A stretch of DNA of 64,000 nucleotides, taken from positions 806,001-870,000 of the forward strand of contig NZ_CP042912.1 in NCBI RefSeq assembly GCF_008087665.1. The letters run 5' to 3'. The DNA comes from Mariniblastus fucicola (GTDB taxonomy: Bacteria; Planctomycetota; Planctomycetia; Pirellulales; Pirellulaceae). Both the position numbers and the translations under genes were made by a program. Below, piece after piece: positions 51,631-61,244 of this stretch. Every line of letters starts with the position of its first letter. Position 1 is the stretch's first letter. The notes beneath the pieces are model-generated. The model was given only the letters and a program-made list of their open reading frames with translations. It was not told the origin of the DNA and did not search any database.

Positions 51631-54600
51631 CTATACACGCCGCACTTTATCCAGCTGTTTGTCCAGTCGTTTGCTGGAGACTTTAATCACCGTGCCCAGA
51701 TTCTGCGCGAACAGCGAAACCCGATACTCTTCGATCATCCAGCGAAACTGTATCAGTTCCGGATCGACGATCCCGATGGCTTCGTGCTGTTCCTTGAGCT
51801 CGATGTACCTGGTCCAAAAATGTTCGATCTCGTCAGCCAGCTCGCGATCCTTCTCGGCCGGGAACGAAGTGATTTTCTCGATCCGCCGGGCGATGCCTTC
51901 GAAGTAGCGCGGGTATTCCTTGAGCCACATCCATGCAGTCGTTCCCAGAAACGATTCGGTTGTCAGCGATGAAAGTTGATTCTTGATGTCGTGCTTCGTC
52001 GTCCCGCGCGAAGCCGGGATGTTGCCGAGCGCCAAATCAGTCGCATGAGCCGCAGCGGAAAACTTCGGCAGCCATTTCGCGACCGCCTGAGTCGCGATCG
52101 AAATGCGTTCCACGGATTCGGCGCTGAGTGCCTGAAAGTCGGATTCGGTACGAGGAATTTTTTCACGTTCCACAAACGCGATGCGGACAATTAGGTCACC
52201 CAGTTCGTCACGCAACGATTTGGTGGGGACAAATCGCGAAAGCAATAACGCGTGATGGTCGAACTCTGGCAGCCAGTTGACTTGTGATTTGACCGCTTTG
52301 CGATTGAGCATTCGAAACAATCGGATCAGTCCCCCGCGGGTTTTCGATTCCGCGCTCTCTTTCGAGTCCGTCAAACGCAAGCCGACGCTGTCCTGCTGGT
52401 CGATGATCGCCGGGAATGCAGTCAGCCGCGTTGCGCCGCGTTGGATCGGAACTTCGACCGGCAGGTCTCCCCAAGTCCACTCCTTGAGCCCGTCTTGCGT
52501 CCACGTTTCGTCTTCGACTTCCACAATCGAAGAACTGTGCTCGGCACCCAACTGCTGCCGAAGCTCCGCGACGCTTCGACCCTCGGCAACGACTTCTCCC
52601 TGCTCGTCGACGACCTCTACGTTCACCTTCAGATGCGGTGAAAGCTTTTCCAGCTTGAATTCGCTGGGCGATATCGGCTGTCCCGCCACTTTGCTCAACT
52701 CGCGAGCGACCGCTTCGGTAAACTTGCCTTTGCCAAACTCAATCTCTGCGACAACTGTGTCCGCCGTTTCGGGAGCAGGAACAACCATTCGCCGCGTGGC
52801 TTTGGGAAGACTGCGGATTAGCTCGATGACACGGGACTTCATCAGTCCCGGAATCAGCCAGCCAGTTTGCACATCGTCCAGTTGCCCGATCCCTTCGACC
52901 GGCAAGCGAATCGTGGCTCCATCGTTTTTATCGCCGGGCGAAAACTTGTATTCGATCGGAATCTCCATCGATCCGATTTGTACCTCGTTGGGAAACAGTT
53001 CCTGGGAGTTTCCAAGGTCGGCTCCTGGTAGCAAATCGGATTTCGTCATCCGCAGTTTCTGATCAAGCGAAGGATCAGACTTCAGTTTCTGCAATAGCGA
53101 GCGATTGTCGAAAACGTCTTCCGGAAGATGTTGTTCGTAAAACGCCGGCGTGACGAATGGATCGATCACCAGGTCGCGGTCGCGGGTTTTTGCGGCCTCT
53201 TTTTCCAGCTCTTCGACCAGCCACTGGTTGTGAATGTAAAAGTCCGGCGTTCCCTCGAACTCGTCGCCGCACAGTCCCCGGTCGATGAAGATCGTTCGCG
53301 CCGCTGCCGCATCAATTGGTCCGTAGTGCACCGCGCGACCCGCGACGATCGGCAGCCCGAACAGGCTGACGTGTTCCGACACCATGACGGATTGTTTCTT
53401 CTTGCTCCACCGCGCGTCGGTGTGTCGTTTCTTGATCAGGTGAGGAGCCAGTCGTTCGATCCAGTCTGGCGAAATCGAAGCAACCGTGCGGCCGTATCGT
53501 TTGGTGGTCTCGACGATTTCCGCCGCGATGATCCATTTTGGTTTGGTACCGAACACATCCGAACCCGGCCAGAGATGGAACTTGATTCCGCCCGAGCCAG
53601 TGAACTCATGCTTGTCGCCCAGCATCGCGACTCCCGAAAGCAGCCCGCACATCAGGCTACGATGGATCGCGTTGTAGTCATTCTTGCGATCCCGAATTTT
53701 CAGTCCCTCGCGACCCACCATCGACTTCAGCTGCCGATAGATTTCCTGCCATTGTCGCATCAGAGAAAACGAAATGAAGTTCTGCTCGCAGGCTTTCTTC
53801 AACTTGCTTTTGGAAAGGTCCTCTTTTCGTTCGTGGTACCAATCCCAAATGTTCAGCAGCCCCAAAAAGTCCGATTTTTCGTTGGCGAACTGCTCGTGGG
53901 CCTGATCCGCGGCCTGTTTGCGTTCTACTGGACGAAGTTTGGGGCTCTGGATCTCGAGCGCCGATGCGATGACCAGCACCTCCGCCAAACAGCCTTCTCG
54001 GTCGGCAGAGAAAATCATCTTTCCAATCCGCGGATCGACAGGAAGCCGCGCCAGCTTGCGGCCTTCCCGCGTCAAATGTTTTTTCTCATCGACAGCGCCG
54101 ACTTCAAACAGCGTTTTAAAACCATCGCGCACGTTCTCGACTCGTGGCGGATCAATAAAAGGAAACTCTTCGATGTCACCCAGTCGCAAGTGCAAGGTCT
54201 GAAGAATCACGGATGCCAAATTCGTGCGACGGATTTCTGGCGTGGTAAATTTCTGCCGCGACTCGTAATCGTCTTCCGCATAAAGACGAACCGCCACGCC
54301 GGGCCCGATTCGACCACAGCGCCCCGATCGCTGATTGGCTGACGCTTGGGAAACGGGCTCGATTGGCAAACGTTGAACTTTGCTTTTCGCCGCGTAGTGG
54401 CTGATTCGCGCGGTTCCGGTATCGACCACGCAACTGATTCTCGGAACCGTGATCGAAGATTCCGCAACGTTCGTCGCCAGCACAATCCGCCGTGCGGACT
54501 TCGGTTGAAAGATCTCGTTCTGCTGACCTGTGGATAGTCGCGCGTAGAGCGGGAGAACTTCGATTCGGGAACCGCCAAGTACAGCTTTCAGCTTCCGGCT

Positions 54601-55536
54601 GACGGTGCGGATTTCTGCTTCGGTGGGCAGAAAGACAAGAATGTCTCCGTCCTCTTCCCTGACCAGTTCGCGGCACGTCTGCGCCACGTGATCAGAAACT
54701 TCGATCTGTGAATCGCCGCCGTCCGGTGATGTCGGCGGTTGGTAGCGAATCTCAACCGGATAGGTGCGGCCCTCAACATTGATGATGGGAACCGGTTTGT
54801 CTTTGTCGACGGTGAAATGGTCCGCGAATCGCTGCGTGTTGATCGTTGCCGAAGTGATGATCAGTTTCAGGTCTTTCCGCGTGGCCAGAATTCGTTTCAG
54901 TCCGCCAAGCAAAAAATCGATGTTCAGCGAACGTTCGTGCGCTTCATCGATGATGATCATTTCGTACTGATTCAGGAATCGGTCGGACTGCGTTTCCGCC
55001 AGCAGGATTCCGTCGGTCATCAACTTGATGAAAGTATCATTGCCCGTTTTGTCGTCGAAACGAATCTTGAAGCCGACGTCTTTGCCCAGCGGCGTTCCAA
55101 TCTGCGACGCCAGTCTCGCCGCCACTCCACGGGCCGCAATTCGACGCGGTTGCGTGTGCCCGATCATTCCCCGGATTCCGAGCCCCGCCTGAAGTGCGAT
55201 TAAAGGAAGCTGAGTCGATTTTCCGGATCCAGTTTCGCCGCTAATAACGACGACCTGGTGGTTAAGAATGGCTTCGGTGATTTCTTCAGATCTGGCCGCG
55301 ATCGGAAGCGTTTCATCCAGTTGCGGTTTCGGGAGCAAGCTTTCGCGCTTCGAAAATCGTTCTTTGGAGGCCGCGAAACGTTTGAGGAAGTTCTCCAGCT
55401 TCGCAAGATCGCCCGCGTTGCCAGATTCCGGTTGGTTTTTCAATCGTCGAAAGTTCGAACGCAGCCAGTGCTCATCGGTGAGCATGGTTTGGTCGATCGC
55501 GGATCGAAATTCGGATGGGTTGGGAAGCTGTGTCAT
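51631..55536 (-). CDS. hrpA: ATP-dependent RNA helicase HrpA
   Basis: 1301-aa DEAH-box helicase of the HrpA type, which unwinds RNA and rescues stalled ribosomes. Core motifs in order are ISGETGSGKSTQLP (motif I), HTQPRRIAARG (Ia), IIIDEAHERSLNID (DEAH), TSATINTQRFADHF (III) and NQRSGRCGRIGPG (motif VI). The long C-terminal region, which includes an OB-like stretch (GLPIVAGRAVHYG), is characteristic of HrpA rather than HrpB. The frame opens 42 codons earlier at 55662, but the ATG at 55536 (TQLPNPSEFRSAIDQ) gives a length equal to E. coli HrpA. It is a single-gene unit. Confidence 0.95.
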   Translation of the reverse strand: MTQLPNPSEFRSAIDQTMLTDEHWLRSNFRRLKNQPESGNAGDLAKLENFLKRFAASKERFSKRESLLPKPQLDETLPIAARSEEITEAILNHQVVVISGETGSGKSTQLPLIALQAGLGIRGMIGHTQPRRIAARGVAARLASQIGTPLGKDVGFKIRFDDKTGNDTFIKLMTDGILLAETQSDRFLNQYEMIIIDEAHERSLNIDFLLGGLKRILATRKDLKLIITSATINTQRFADHFTVDKDKPVPIINVEGRTYPVEIRYQPPTSPDGGDSQIEVSDHVAQTCRELVREEDGDILVFLPTEAEIRTVSRKLKAVLGGSRIEVLPLYARLSTGQQNEIFQPKSARRIVLATNVAESSITVPRISCVVDTGTARISHYAAKSKVQRLPIEPVSQASANQRSGRCGRIGPGVAVRLYAEDDYESRQKFTTPEIRRTNLASVILQTLHLRLGDIEEFPFIDPPRVENVRDGFKTLFEVGAVDEKKHLTREGRKLARLPVDPRIGKMIFSADREGCLAEVLVIASALEIQSPKLRPVERKQAADQAHEQFANEKSDFLGLLNIWDWYHERKEDLSKSKLKKACEQNFISFSLMRQWQEIYRQLKSMVGREGLKIRDRKNDYNAIHRSLMCGLLSGVAMLGDKHEFTGSGGIKFHLWPGSDVFGTKPKWIIAAEIVETTKRYGRTVASISPDWIERLAPHLIKKRHTDARWSKKKQSVMVSEHVSLFGLPIVAGRAVHYGPIDAAAARTIFIDRGLCGDEFEGTPDFYIHNQWLVEELEKEAAKTRDRDLVIDPFVTPAFYEQHLPEDVFDNRSLLQKLKSDPSLDQKLRMTKSDLLPGADLGNSQELFPNEVQIGSMEIPIEYKFSPGDKNDGATIRLPVEGIGQLDDVQTGWLIPGLMKSRVIELIRSLPKATRRMVVPAPETADTVVAEIEFGKGKFTEAVARELSKVAGQPISPSEFKLEKLSPHLKVNVEVVDEQGEVVAEGRSVAELRQQLGAEHSSSIVEVEDETWTQDGLKEWTWGDLPVEVPIQRGATRLTAFPAIIDQQDSVGLRLTDSKESAESKTRGGLIRLFRMLNRKAVKSQVNWLPEFDHHALLLSRFVPTKSLRDELGDLIVRIAFVEREKIPRTESDFQALSAESVERISIATQAVAKWLPKFSAAAHATDLALGNIPASRGTTKHDIKNQLSSLTTESFLGTTAWMWLKEYPRYFEGIARRIEKITSFPAEKDRELADEIEHFWTRYIELKEQHEAIGIVDPELIQFRWMIEEYRVSLFAQNLGTVIKVSSKRLDKQLDKVRRV

Positions 55537-55807
55537 CGGCGGAGATTTTAGTTGAACTGCTCTCTGCGACAAACGGTGGGTGCAAAGGTTCGAGGTTTTC
55601 GTGCAGCTTCGTGTCGATAGCGACCACGCGACGCGGTTCGGTGACGCTGGCTCGAGGGTCAAGGCTGGGTTTCGTGGGGATGACGGGCAGTGAGTCCTGG
55701 CTGCGGGTTATAGCGGTTGTGACAACAGGAAACTGGCTCCATCGCGGCTCTGAGCTATGGAGAATATTCAGCAGCGACTAAAATGAGGCCTTCAAACTGA
55801 ACCACTG

Positions 55808-56671
55808 ATGCCTCGAAAGTCTGCTATGAGTATCCGACGTGCTGTGATCACAGCCGCGGCTCCTGATCAAAAATCGCTTCCGCTCCAAAGTCTCGTCGAC
55901 CAACACGGAAATCCGAAAACCGCTCTGGAGCTAATTCTCGACGAATGCGTTGACGCCGGCGCGGAAGAAATCTGCGTCATCGTCTGCCCGGGTGCCGGAG
56001 AGACTTTCACGCGGTCTGCAGGCCAGCATGCCAATCGACTGACCTTCGTCGAACAGGCAAATCCACGAGGCTATGGCGATGCACTTTTTCGCGCCAGGAA
56101 CTTCGTCGGCAACGAGCCGTTTTTGCACTTGGTCAGCGACCATGTTTACATCAGTCACAGCGACCACGGCTGTGCCCGACAGGTTGTCGAACTTGCCAGT
56201 CAGGAGAACTGCGTTGTATCGGCCGTGCAGGAAACTCGCGAAAACATGCTGCCGTTCTTCGGAACGGTTGGTGCGACCCGTAGCGGAAACCGTGACGATG
56301 TCTACGACGTCAATTCGGTCGTCGAAAAGCCAACGCCGACCCGAGCCGAGCAGGACTTGATCGTGGCCGGGCTGCGTTCCAGCCACTACCTCTGTCTTTC
56401 AGGGATGCATGTGTTGACCCCCGGAGTCATGGAGGTGCTGGGGGAACAGATCAATGCAACGGAAGGCTCGATTCAGCTTTCCGACGCCCTGCACGCCGCG
56501 GCGCAGCGCGAACGATATTTGGCGCTGCGGGTAAAGGCGTCTCGCTACAATATCGGCGAAAAGTACGGTTTGCTCAAAAGTCAATTGGCATTGGCGCTCA
56601 ACGGAAAAGACCGTGACGACATTCTCGCAGAGCTGCTTGAGTTAGTGGCGACGACTGGCGGAGGAGCCTGA
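55808..56671 (+). CDS. GalU-like nucleotidyltransferase lacking the GxGTR loop
   Basis: 287 aa, resembling UTP-glucose-1-phosphate uridylyltransferase (GalU). Conserved features are VITAAAPDQKSLPLQSLVDQ at the start, TALELILDECVDAGAEEICVIV, VEQANPRGYGDALFRARNFVG, LHLVSDHVYI (the metal-binding Asp) and the SSHYLCLSGMHVLTP and NIGEKYG stretches. The loop that should read GLGTRFLPATKAIPKEM is AAAPDQKSLPLQSLVDQHGN: the G-x-G-T-R motif and the catalytic-type Lys are gone. It may be a non-catalytic partner or have a changed donor. It is one base from the start of the kinase-pyrophosphorylase gene, so the two proteins are made together. Confidence 0.75.
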   Translation: MPRKSAMSIRRAVITAAAPDQKSLPLQSLVDQHGNPKTALELILDECVDAGAEEICVIVCPGAGETFTRSAGQHANRLTFVEQANPRGYGDALFRARNFVGNEPFLHLVSDHVYISHSDHGCARQVVELASQENCVVSAVQETRENMLPFFGTVGATRSGNRDDVYDVNSVVEKPTPTRAEQDLIVAGLRSSHYLCLSGMHVLTPGVMEVLGEQINATEGSIQLSDALHAAAQRERYLALRVKASRYNIGEKYGLLKSQLALALNGKDRDDILAELLELVATTGGGA

Positions 56672-56672
56672 T

Positions 56673-59600
56673 ATGTCGGTTGCCACAAAGAAAAATTCGC
56701 TGGTCGACATCATCACGTCGACCGAAGATGACGTTCGCAATCAGTCACTGGACGCCGTTTGCGAAGGAGCCACATTGGACGAGTTGTTGCAGCATTGCGA
56801 AGCACTCGATTCGTTCTGGCGGCAAACGGACAATCTGTACCATCGCGTGCGAGCTCTGTTTTTTCTGTTTTCCATCCATCGATTTCAGCTGCCGCCGCAC
56901 TACGGGCCGGACCACAGCGGCAACATTCCCTTCGACGCCTGGCAACATTTGCTCGAGCGGCGATTCACCGAAGCGATTGACGAGCTGTTGGAAGTTCAGC
57001 AAAGCGAAGGACCCTGCGATGGGCTTTCGAGCGCGTTGGCCAGCAGTTATCACGAACTCGGTTTTCAGACATTGGCCGATCAGGTTCGGAAAAGCGTCCG
57101 AACGGTACGTGGCAACCAGTGGATGTTCCGCACCGGGCATCCCGCCGATCATCCGCTTCGCTTTCGCAAGGAATTGCTGCAAAAGGACGAAAGCAACGCA
57201 TCGTATCCGATGCTCAAAGAGACAACCGCGGTGCGAATGGATTTCACGCACAGCGCGTGGAGCGATATTTTCTTTCTCGGAATGGACTTTCCCTCGGGCG
57301 CCAAAGTGATCAATGCTTCGGTGAACCTTGGTGTTATGGGACGTGACAAGCAGCCCCGTCCGCCAATTGAATGCTATCTCCGGGTAATCGATCAGCCTGT
57401 TCTCAAGCTGACCAGCACCGATTTGAAGGCCTCGGCAGAGATCGAGACGATTGCAGAAGTCTTCGATTTTGCAAAAGACTATCTTGGACTGTTGAAGGCG
57501 GCTGTGATCGCTGCCGGAATTGTTCCGCCAGGCATGGAAGGCTGCGGGCAGACGATGGAAAGCCTGCTCGAACGTCTGGTCGGTCCTGGCTTGGGACTGG
57601 AAATCGTGTCCAAGGTCAACGACATTCCAAAGGGATCACGGCTGGCGGTTTCAACCAATTTGCTGGGCTCGCTGATTTCCGTTTGCATGCGTGCGACAGG
57701 CCAGGTGAGTGAACTGACTGGCGGGCTTCAGGAGTCCGATCGGCGTATCATTGCCGCGCGTGCGATTCTTGGAGAATGGATCGGTGGATCGGGTGGTGGA
57801 TGGCAAGACTCGGGCGGAGTTTGGCCAGGAATCAAACTGATTTGCGGAAGCGAGGCCGAGTCTGGCGATCCGGAATTCGGAGTTAGCCGCGGGCGGTTGC
57901 TGCCAAAGCACGAAGTGTTTTCTTCCGAAGAAGTCACGCCAGAGACGCGAAAAGCGCTGCAGGATTCTTTGGTGCTGGTTCATGGCGGGATGGCCCAGAA
58001 CGTCGGACCGATCCTTGAAATGGTGACGGAAAAATATCTTCTTCGCAGCCCTGTCGAATGGGAAGCTCGTAAAGAAGCCATCGAAATTCTTGGTGAAATC
58101 ACTCGCGGGCTCAAAGAGGGCGATATCCGGGCGATCGGGAAAGCCACCAGTCGAAACTTCTTTGGTCCGCTTCAGAAAATAATTCCCTGGTGCACGAATC
58201 TGTTCACCAATTCGTTGGTCGAGCAAAGTGAACAAAAATGGGGCGACCAGTTTTGGGGTTTCTGGATGCTTGGCGGAATGGCAGGCGGCGGGATGGGATT
58301 CATCTTCGATCCGGCAGTCAAAGAAGACGCCAAGCGTTGGTTGCAGACGACGATGATCGAGACTCGCGATCGGATGCAGACTCGACTGCCGTTCGCGATG
58401 ACTCCTGTGGTTTACGATTTTGAAATCAATGACCGTGGCACGTGGAGCGAAATGCTTGCCGGCGACGATGCCAGAATGCCAGGCGAATACTACGCGCTTC
58501 AGGTTCCCGGTTGGTTAAAGCAGGAATCCCACGAACTTCCAGCACTGGCTCGGCGAGAGTTGGAGCAACTCGGCAGTGAATTTCGAAACGAAGGCCAGTC
58601 GGCGACCCTGCAGAAGCTTATTGAAAGCATTCTGCCTGGCCGCAAGTCAACGGGCGTCCGCGAAGATTCACTTGGCGAGCTACTCGAGCGTTTTGGTTTT
58701 GATCGGGAATTACACGAGCAAATTCAAACGGACCTGCAGTCGGGCCGTTTCGGGCTGTCGCAAAATCGATTGCCGTTGAACACGTCGATCAAAGATGTTG
58801 AGTATGAAGACGTTGTTGACGTTCGAGAGTCAATCTCGAGGTTCGCCCGTTCCGCTGGCGAGGCCGCGATCGCAAACGGAGAAGTCGCAGTCGTCACGTT
58901 GGCCGCTGGCGTCGGAAGCCGCTGGACCGAAGGGGCGGGCGTCGTCAAAGGCTTGCATCCTTTCGCACAGCTGTCGGGAAAGCATCGCAGTTTTCTGGAA
59001 GTGCATCTCGCGAAGAGCAATCGAATCTCCAAGCAGTTCGCCAGCCAGGAAAACGCGATTCCGCACATCATCACGACGGGCTACATGACGCATGAGCCCA
59101 TCGCTGAACACTTAAGCCAGGTTTCCAACTACGGATATCCGGGCCAGGTCATCCTGTCTCCGGGGCGCTACGTTGGCTTGCGGACGATTCCGATGGTTCG
59201 CGATTTGCGTTTTGCCTGGCAGGAAATGCCGCAACAGGTGCTCGATCAACAGCAACAAAAAGTTCGCGACAGCGCTCGCGCGGCACTGATTCGTTGGGCT
59301 CGGCAAATGGGTGAAGGCACCGACTATACCGACAATATGCCGATGCAATGTCTGCATCCAGTCGGACACTGGTACGAGATTCCAAACATGCTCCGCAACG
59401 GAACTCTGCATCAGTTGCTGCAGTCACGGCCGAACCTGAAGCACATGATGCTGCACAATATCGACACGCTGGGCGCGAACGTTGATCCTGGATTGCTGGG
59501 CACACACATCGAGCACGGCAACTGTTTGAGTTTTGAAGTGATCGAACGGCGGCTGGACGATCGCGGCGGCGGGCTGGCGAGAGTCAATGGTCGACCTCGG

Positions 59601-60020
59601 TTGGTGGAAGGTTTGGCCATGCCGCGGGAACGCGACGAGTTCAAGCTGACTTACTACAACTCGCTCACGACATGGATTGATATCGACCAGTTGCTCAGCG
59701 TGCTGGGGTTGTCGCGGGAAGAGCTTGGTGATCAAGAGAAAGTTGATCGCTGTGTTCGCGAATTGTCCCAGCAAATGCCGACTTACATCACGCTCAAGGA
59801 TGTGAAGAAGCGTTGGGGGAACGGCCAGGAGGACGTGTTCCCCGTTGCCCAGTTCGAGAAACTGTGGGGCGACATGTCGGCGCTTTCAGATGTTACTAGC
59901 AATTTTTTCGTGATCTCGTTGCAGCGAGGCCAACAGCTCAAAGAGCAGGCTCAGCTTGACGGATGGCTTCGCGACGGCACGGCAGGATTCGTGAATGGCT
60001 TGTGCGAGTGGAGTGACTGA
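56673..60020 (+). CDS. GHMP sugar kinase fused to UDPGP-type nucleotidyltransferase
   Basis: 1115 aa, two apparent modules. From about residue 184 a GHMP kinase begins: AVRMDFTHSAWSDIFFLGMD matches the R-x-D-x3-GGWSD motif of fucokinase and heptose kinase, IPKGSRLAVSTNLLGSLI (about 317) is the ATP loop, here altered from GSGLGTSS, and GGSGGGWQDSGGVWPGIKL (about 370) is the GWQD-GG motif. From about residue 740 a UDPGP pyrophosphorylase follows: TLAAGVGSRWTEGAGVVKGL, then HLAKSNRISKQFA, MLHNIDTLGANVDPGLLG and RLVEGLAMPRERDEF. A protein with both would phosphorylate a sugar and activate it to a nucleotide sugar. The order is opposite to FKGP/Fkp. The altered ATP loop means kinase activity needs testing. 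Confidence 0.78.
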   Translation: MSVATKKNSLVDIITSTEDDVRNQSLDAVCEGATLDELLQHCEALDSFWRQTDNLYHRVRALFFLFSIHRFQLPPHYGPDHSGNIPFDAWQHLLERRFTEAIDELLEVQQSEGPCDGLSSALASSYHELGFQTLADQVRKSVRTVRGNQWMFRTGHPADHPLRFRKELLQKDESNASYPMLKETTAVRMDFTHSAWSDIFFLGMDFPSGAKVINASVNLGVMGRDKQPRPPIECYLRVIDQPVLKLTSTDLKASAEIETIAEVFDFAKDYLGLLKAAVIAAGIVPPGMEGCGQTMESLLERLVGPGLGLEIVSKVNDIPKGSRLAVSTNLLGSLISVCMRATGQVSELTGGLQESDRRIIAARAILGEWIGGSGGGWQDSGGVWPGIKLICGSEAESGDPEFGVSRGRLLPKHEVFSSEEVTPETRKALQDSLVLVHGGMAQNVGPILEMVTEKYLLRSPVEWEARKEAIEILGEITRGLKEGDIRAIGKATSRNFFGPLQKIIPWCTNLFTNSLVEQSEQKWGDQFWGFWMLGGMAGGGMGFIFDPAVKEDAKRWLQTTMIETRDRMQTRLPFAMTPVVYDFEINDRGTWSEMLAGDDARMPGEYYALQVPGWLKQESHELPALARRELEQLGSEFRNEGQSATLQKLIESILPGRKSTGVREDSLGELLERFGFDRELHEQIQTDLQSGRFGLSQNRLPLNTSIKDVEYEDVVDVRESISRFARSAGEAAIANGEVAVVTLAAGVGSRWTEGAGVVKGLHPFAQLSGKHRSFLEVHLAKSNRISKQFASQENAIPHIITTGYMTHEPIAEHLSQVSNYGYPGQVILSPGRYVGLRTIPMVRDLRFAWQEMPQQVLDQQQQKVRDSARAALIRWARQMGEGTDYTDNMPMQCLHPVGHWYEIPNMLRNGTLHQLLQSRPNLKHMMLHNIDTLGANVDPGLLGTHIEHGNCLSFEVIERRLDDRGGGLARVNGRPRLVEGLAMPRERDEFKLTYYNSLTTWIDIDQLLSVLGLSREELGDQEKVDRCVRELSQQMPTYITLKDVKKRWGNGQEDVFPVAQFEKLWGDMSALSDVTSNFFVISLQRGQQLKEQAQLDGWLRDGTAGFVNGLCEWSD

Positions 60021-60329: not shown

Positions 60330-61244
60330 ATGAAGTTACTCCCGGGAAGTCCGACCTTGGTTTCGAATGCCAGTTGCGTGCCTGTTTCGGATAAAGCAGC
60401 GGAACAGCCGCCAGCGCCGGGTTCGCCGCCAAAAGTACTCCGGATCTCACCCGTCGATTCAGGAAAAGGGCTGAGGTCGATCGATACGGATACATTCGTG
60501 TTTGGCCGTGATGAAAGCTGCGACCTGGTCGTGGCCGAGACCTTGGCATCGCGGCGGCATGCCAAGATCGTTCGTGATGGCGAGAACTGGTTTGTCGTTG
60601 ATCTTGGATCGACCAACGGGACCTTCGTCAACGATGTTCGAGTGGATAGCCAGCAGCTGTATTCCGGCGATTGTCTGCGCGTCGGACGATGGACGTTCAA
60701 ATTTTTTGACGCTGATAATATTGAAGCCCACTACTACGAGTCGGTCTATCGAATGATGACTCAGGATGCGCTGACAGGATCGTGGAATCGGCGGTACCTG
60801 ATGGACGTTCTTGAACGGGAACTTCACCGCCATGCTCGCTCGAAACAACCAGTCGGTTTGTTGATGATCGACTTCGATCACTTCAAATCAATTAACGACA
60901 GGTACGGTCATCTCGTCGGCGACGAAGTTCTTGCTGAGTTTGGTCGACGAGTAAAAGCCGTCACCAGAAACAGTGAAGTGTTCGCTCGTTTTGGTGGCGA
61001 CGAATTCGCAGTCGTTTTGGTGAACACAGATTTCGAATCTGCGTTGAAGGCCACCGAACGGCTTCGCGAAGCAGCGATCGGCGATCCATTTTTTACGTCC
61101 AGCGGAATCCTTGAATGCTCGTTGAGTTGCGGCATCGCTGTTTGCGATGCCGGGAATTCCCTGACGCGAGAAGAGTTGCTGGACGCGGCTGACAAGAACC
61201 TCTTCAAGGCCAAGAACGCCGGTCGCAATCAGGCGATTGGCTAG
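60330..61244 (+). CDS. FHA-GGDEF diguanylate cyclase
   Basis: 304 aa. Residues about 35-130 form an FHA phosphothreonine-binding domain (FVFGRDESCDLVV, TLASRRHAKIV, VVDLGSTNGTFVNDV), and residues about 145-304 a GGDEF domain with DALTGSWNRRYL, LLMIDFDHFKSINDRYGH and the intact active-site RFGGDEFAVV. The usual product-inhibition I-site (RxxD five residues before GGDEF) reads RNSE, so feedback inhibition may be weak. FHA suggests activation by a Ser/Thr kinase; planctomycetes are rich in these, and one lies at 44166-45104. It stands alone. Confidence 0.93.
   Translation: MKLLPGSPTLVSNASCVPVSDKAAEQPPAPGSPPKVLRISPVDSGKGLRSIDTDTFVFGRDESCDLVVAETLASRRHAKIVRDGENWFVVDLGSTNGTFVNDVRVDSQQLYSGDCLRVGRWTFKFFDADNIEAHYYESVYRMMTQDALTGSWNRRYLMDVLERELHRHARSKQPVGLLMIDFDHFKSINDRYGHLVGDEVLAEFGRRVKAVTRNSEVFARFGGDEFAVVLVNTDFESALKATERLREAAIGDPFFTSSGILECSLSCGIAVCDAGNSLTREELLDAADKNLFKAKNAGRNQAIG

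Follow-up and report, generated by a model that had tools for sequence, protein, structure and literature searches.

A reversed-order kinase–pyrophosphorylase fusion protein and its GalU-like partner gene in Mariniblastus fucicola

The window analyzed here, a 64,000-nucleotide stretch of Mariniblastus fucicola DNA (contig NZ_CP042912.1, positions 806,001 to 870,000), encodes a protein of 1115 residues in which a fucokinase-type GHMP kinase domain is followed by a pyrophosphorylase of the UDPGP/UAP type. The gene is a single open reading frame on the forward strand (56673..60020, with the ATG at 56673 and the stop codon at 60020), and the gene directly upstream encodes a GalU-like nucleotidyltransferase with a degraded signature loop. 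With moderate confidence, we regard the pair as a bifunctional salvage enzyme that would make an NDP-sugar, probably a UDP-sugar, from a fucose-like sugar with the help of a GalU-derived accessory subunit.

The order of the two domains is the reverse of that in FKP and FKGP, as an earlier note on this DNA had claimed, and several matches place the kinase first and the pyrophosphorylase second. The NCBIfam model of Fkp, NF009948, aligned with its positions 615–954 to residues 186–563 (E = 4.1e-17, 61.2 bits). A phmmer search against PDB chains located Fkp kinase chains at residues 195–413 and UGP at residues 888–1011, and Pfam UDPGP (PF01704) matched residues 892–1011 with 36.6 bits, above its cut-off of 22. 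The latter cut-off was passed in all seven full-length members scanned (the window protein and six others). A profile of 78 sequences of the fusion recovered the same two groups, and the structural matches described below agree. Thus, the kinase domain is assigned to approximately residues 180–600 (57210..58472, forward strand) and the pyrophosphorylase to residues 723–1115, or about 690–1115 (58839..60017, forward strand). Only the kinase part aligned to NF009948, and the fusion protein fails the curated cut-off of that model (61.2 vs. 721 bits); six further family members scored between 66.9 and 82 bits. In the Pfam search, the GDP-fucose pyrophosphorylase model PF07959 was absent from the fusion protein as well as from the entire genome of M. 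fucicola. GHMP_kinases_N (PF00288) gave no match to the fusion protein at an E value of 1, and a search of the genome with this model returned three places, none of which is the fusion gene. None of the seven members scanned matched a Pfam or NCBIfam model of its own kind.

AlphaFold2 prediction of the whole fusion protein from the 78-row alignment resulted in a model with a pLDDT of 86.6 and a pTM of 0.87. Values of pLDDT below 50 were confined to residues 1–4, 656–663, 751–755 (inside the nucleotide loop) and 1047–1052. When the model was searched with Foldseek, the top two matches were the full-length FKP structure 9iit and the kinase part 9iip, followed by UAP, UGP and heptokinase. The TMt values were 0.78 for 9iip, 0.54–0.65 for UAP and UGP, and 0.79 and 0.80 for the WcbL heptokinase structures 4usk and 4usm. 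The GHMP fold that the earlier note expected at residues 180–620 is in this way supported at about residues 180–600 by profile as well as structure matches, and the predicted model supports placing this region in the GHMP kinase superfamily by fold. A helical lead-in to the pyrophosphorylase begins at about residue 604 of the model.

The region preceding the kinase, residues 1–179 (56673..57209, forward strand), is all-helical according to DSSP of the predicted model. The notion that the N-terminal 180 residues match nothing holds insofar as profile searches returned no significant family or PDB relative, the best PDB match having an E value of 0.015. The chains concerned, influenza haemagglutinin HA2 (E = 0.015 and worse with the N-terminal profile), were dismissed as a coiled-coil-like chance resemblance. 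Weak matches to TPR models in one to three of 26 members concern this part of the protein and serve as a lead only. Correspondence of the 180 residues to the helical linker of Fkp was considered. An hhalign alignment to Fkp reached residue 21 or 5 when realigned, albeit with an unchanged score, so that the extension receives no support of its own; with realignment switched off, the alignment starts at residue 180.

PMC11982464 names R592, W599, D601, S719, E751, Q761 and D762 of Fkp, together with D644 as an adenine contact, G717 as a backbone phosphate contact and T602 as an O3 contact. These residues were placed on the fusion protein along the phmmer/PDB alignment. The sugar-binding and catalytic positions R592, W599, D601, E751, Q761 and D762 are identical and correspond to R188, W196, D198, E368, Q378 and D379. 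In the loop region, S719 and L722 are retained as S327 and L330, and S720 is replaced by T328. The adenine pocket keeps D644 (D250) and L722 (L330), with I669 corresponding to L273 and M645 to a leucine. R188, W196 and D198 are found in 78 of 78 aligned sequences, and E368, Q378 and D379 in 77, the remaining row having a gap; D250, L273 and L330 likewise belong to the invariant positions of the family. The predicted catalytic base, D379, is part of a GGGWQD motif (residues 374–379, 57792..57809, forward strand) present in 77 of 78 rows with one gap. Towards the C-terminus of the kinase, the glycine motif GGMAGGGMGF (residues 534–543, 58272..58301, forward strand) is invariant except for residue 537, which is S in 55 and A in 23 rows.

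Departures from Fkp concern R323 and A325, which stand in place of G715 and G717, and I199 in place of T602 (78 of 78). The glycine-rich motif 2 of the GHMP superfamily, GSGLGTSS in Fkp, is accordingly absent. In its place, all 78 rows carry the altered loop on which the earlier note had remarked, GSRLAVST at residues 321–328, within an equally invariant phosphate-binding stretch, IPKGSRLAVST (residues 318–328, 57624..57656, forward strand). Judged by alignment, the altered loop is a hallmark of the family, as it is invariant among the fusion proteins whereas two FKPs from Planctomycetes keep GSGLGTSS. The earlier note left it at a kinase "specialised or impaired". The invariance of the loop combined with the retention of most catalytic and adenine-pocket residues fits the former better and speaks against the latter, and we think that the kinase is specialized rather than impaired. 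A PPi-dependent kinase, an idea prompted by the loop, is disfavored because the adenine-pocket residues are retained. We infer that the kinase is active and uses ATP, with a phosphate loop that has been reshaped and a fucose-like pocket.

The pyrophosphorylase half features a nucleotide-binding loop, AAGVGSRW...VVKGLHPF, at residues 744–764 (58902..58964, forward strand), in which R750 and K759 are invariant; A744, G746, H899, N929 and D931 are conserved in 78 of 78 rows as well. A profile alignment to UGP (E = 8.4e-15) spans about residues 886–1020. By analogy, UTP is the likely nucleotide, since the solved members of the UDPGP/UAP group that were found are UTP enzymes. Residue 993, where UGP has a lysine, is Ser in 52 and Thr in 19 of the 78 rows, and a lost catalytic lysine with altered pyrophosphorylase catalysis was suspected at this position. 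The catalytic lysine of UGP presumably lies further on, near the invariant K1042/K1045 of the fusion protein (placed by eye), although catalysis may still be altered.

The upstream gene (55808..56671, forward strand) encodes a protein of 287 residues that was identified as GalU-like by Pfam, NCBIfam and Foldseek matches; the earlier note makes no mention of it. Its stop codon (TGA, 56669–56671) is separated from the ATG of the fusion gene by a single base, and a GGAGGAG sequence inside its end (56660..56666, forward strand) resembles a ribosome-binding site and may serve as one. The protein scored 38.6 bits against Pfam NTP_transferase (cut-off 21.2) and 102.8 bits against the GalU model TIGR01099, where it remains below the cut-off of 326.8. 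Its predicted model (pLDDT 93.9) matched GalU and YngB in Foldseek. As for GalU itself, nothing in the M. fucicola genome passes the cut-off of the model; the top match is the degraded GalU-like gene of the module, followed by a 311-residue frame beside an RmlB-like gene and a GlgC-like gene (named by eye).

The GalU-like protein is a near-obligate companion of the fusion protein. In 72 of 78 loci, its gene precedes the fusion gene on the same strand; 69 of these partner genes lie within 400 bases, and the gaps in loci L095, L099 and L040 are longer (469, 527 and 1201 bases). Four of the six remaining loci run out within 88 bases of the fusion gene. In the other two (L097 and L110), the flank is present with no adjoining partner; here, the fusion gene is single-copy and the partner is located on a different contig. 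In one of these two cases, the partner gene has a stop codon inside the match. In a separate search of eight genomes for the partner, all eight contained it. Among 60 related genomes, 25 have a fusion match better than E = 1e-30 (the 43 genomes counted at E = 0.001 include weak matches of about 100–370 residues to other proteins). The partner is present in 25 of these 25 and in none of the other 35, an agreement of 60/60 (Fisher p = 2e-17) in which the genomes are related and do not represent independent events. Within the genus, 22 genomes have both genes and six have neither. In one genome (G009, contig 23, locus L025), a partial partner gene is followed by mere stop-ridden fragments from the latter half of the fusion gene and the end of the contig. 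An apparent deletion runs from the partner into the fusion gene, and both genes of the module look decayed together; an assembly fault may lie behind the broken genes.

In the proposed mechanism, the kinase (residues ~180–600) would use ATP to phosphorylate C1 of a free sugar, for which the residues of the pocket point to L-fucose or another sugar of similar configuration. The pyrophosphorylase (residues ~690–1115) would then react the sugar-1-phosphate with an NTP, of which UTP is the likeliest, to yield an NDP-sugar and PPi. L-Fucose or a like-configured sugar in combination with UTP is our best guess. The GalU-like protein, encoded in the same operon, would probably act as an accessory or regulatory subunit with weakened catalysis and retained binding of sugar-1-phosphate, possibly in a physical complex with the fusion protein.

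Three other readings were weighed against this proposal. The kinase domain might have ceased to phosphorylate and instead serve the pyrophosphorylase as a sensor by binding sugar or sugar-1-phosphate. The exchange of phosphate-loop glycines for R and A, at positions where both Planctomycete FKPs compared keep the canonical motif, would be in line with such a loss; conversely, the base, the metal-contact serine, the sugar-stacking tryptophan and the adenine pocket are kept across several phyla, which is unexpected for a dead site and renders a sensor quite unlikely. A similar judgment applies to the substrate. The kinase half is nearest to Fkp, as would be expected of an ordinary salvage enzyme from L-fucose to GDP-L-fucose that performs the FKP function with different parts. 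We consider this improbable, given that the pyrophosphorylase belongs to the UDPGP/UAP group, whose matched solved members use UTP, and that true FKPs of conventional order coexist with the fusion protein in two genomes (G034, contig 474, L140; G012, contig 226, L141).

The GalU-like protein, for its part, might be an active nucleotidyltransferase of the same pathway rather than an accessory subunit. Its fold is intact in the model, D111, E173 and K174 are invariant in 51 of 51 aligned sequences, and 17 of these retain the second metal Asp and 19 the loop Arg. However, the T position of the GxGTR loop is Q in 47 sequences, the R position holds another residue in 32, and the second metal Asp position is N in 33 (and P in one). 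The roles of these residues (the GxGTR motif, D111 as first metal Asp and the second metal Asp) are assumed here, in part by comparison with YngB. As the pyrophosphorylase site of the fusion protein is itself well conserved, an active GalU-like enzyme seems unlikely, and we retain the bifunctional salvage enzyme with an accessory subunit. A bolder version of that proposal is put forward tentatively, as a possibility with the balance against it: a two-protein enzyme in which the disarmed GalU-derived subunit is required by a convergent kinase–pyrophosphorylase, with a product undescribed in bacterial salvage, e.g. a UDP-activated fucose-like sugar, and with the invariant loop arginine as a new way for a GHMP kinase to hold ATP.

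The neighboring genes at 80 loci include none from a pathway pointing to a sugar. Apart from the partner, no neighbor family occurs in more than eight of the 80 loci, and the largest such family includes a sulfatase. An apparent third conserved neighbor (eight loci, mostly divergent) was rejected as antisense shadow frames over the GalU-like gene, because of their position and because the partner seemed absent in exactly these loci. In the window, the corresponding frame lies at 55931–56386 on the reverse strand, with long antisense frames in the same place in eight other loci, and is probably a by-product of codon use. Further upstream, a DEAH-type, HrpA-like helicase of 1343 residues with DUF3418 is encoded at 51631–55662 (reverse strand). 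Just downstream, at 60330–61244 (forward strand), lies a gene for an FHA-GGDEF protein (diguanylate cyclase), and a similar gene follows the module in locus L031. Replacement of galactokinase by the fusion protein is unsupported, as the two rather co-occur: of the 25 genomes with the fusion, 19 contain GalKase_gal_bdg, against 11 of the 35 that lack the fusion (Fisher p = 0.0014), and within the genus the proportions are 17 of 22 and three of six (p = 0.31).

The family is wide and patchy. Nineteen other full-length relatives share 59–88% identity with the window protein, and 77 aligned loci, some of them the same genes as the 19 full-length rows, share 60–88%. Viewed across these alignments, the conservation is not a matter of chance. 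In a contig scan of one public genome collection, relatives were encoded by at least 585 candidate stretches, of which the best 80 were examined; 77 of these together with the window protein form the 78-row alignment. Among these best 80 of at least 585, seven phyla are represented (Planctomycetota, Verrucomicrobiota, Chloroflexota, Armatimonadota, Acidobacteriota, Lentisphaerota and Kiritimatiellota), and the closest relative is from an uncultured Pirellulaceae (88%), the closest with a genus name being from a Mariniblastus MAG (L039, 79–80%). Within the window's own phylum, 19 of 392 genomes have the fusion (at E 1e-20), as do 26 of 288 genomes in the phylum of the Roseibacillus of locus L085 (at E 1e-30). 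A quick tree of the 78 sequences mostly follows the phyla, with eight changes compared to a possible minimum of six, which argues against wide recent horizontal transfer; patchiness and phylum-wise tree together point to many losses or old transfers. From the different domain family and order, we infer a fusion event separate from that of FKP/FKGP.

On this basis, the family would represent a second solution to the activation of free sugars, with a different pyrophosphorylase and the opposite order. The pairing with the GalU-like protein provides a testable case of a nucleotidyltransferase retained as a partner after decay of its signature. If this reading is true, synthesis would also profit from a new enzyme for NDP-sugar salvage.

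Among the open-access papers listed by full-text searches, as covered by title and abstract, nothing was found on a reversed kinase–pyrophosphorylase arrangement, nor was the gene met in a well-described pathway with known substrate, a finding that would have contradicted the earlier note. Like FKP and FKGP, the fusion protein unites sugar-1-kinase and pyrophosphorylase in a single chain; the kinase halves have the same fold, are 31% identical over 189 columns when compared to a Planctomycete FKP, and have most catalytic residues in common. Still, it falls outside FKP/FKGP: the order is opposite, the pyrophosphorylase is of the UDPGP family with no PF07959, GSRLAVST stands for GSGLGTSS and Ile for T602, and there is a partner gene. 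The C-terminal half shares its fold and its nucleotide-loop, His and Asp motifs with UGP and UAP, although the solved enzymes matched are stand-alone proteins and not fused behind a kinase. WcbL heptokinase resembles the kinase half in its GHMP sugar-kinase fold (TM 0.79–0.80), but is a chain of 345 residues without a pyrophosphorylase. The partner protein has the fold of GalU and B. subtilis YngB, from which it differs in the degraded GxGTR loop and in a score under the GalU model cut-off. According to PMC3938481, zebrafish DrGKUP likewise fuses a GHMP sugar kinase to a nucleotidyltransferase, with a short bacterial-type nucleotidyltransferase at the N-terminus and a glucuronokinase at the C-terminus, whereas here the pyrophosphorylase is C-terminal and UDPGP-type and the GalU-like protein is encoded by a gene of its own. 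In the same text, the authors of that study suggest that the weak pyrophosphorylase of DrGKUP possibly needs an unidentified protein cofactor.
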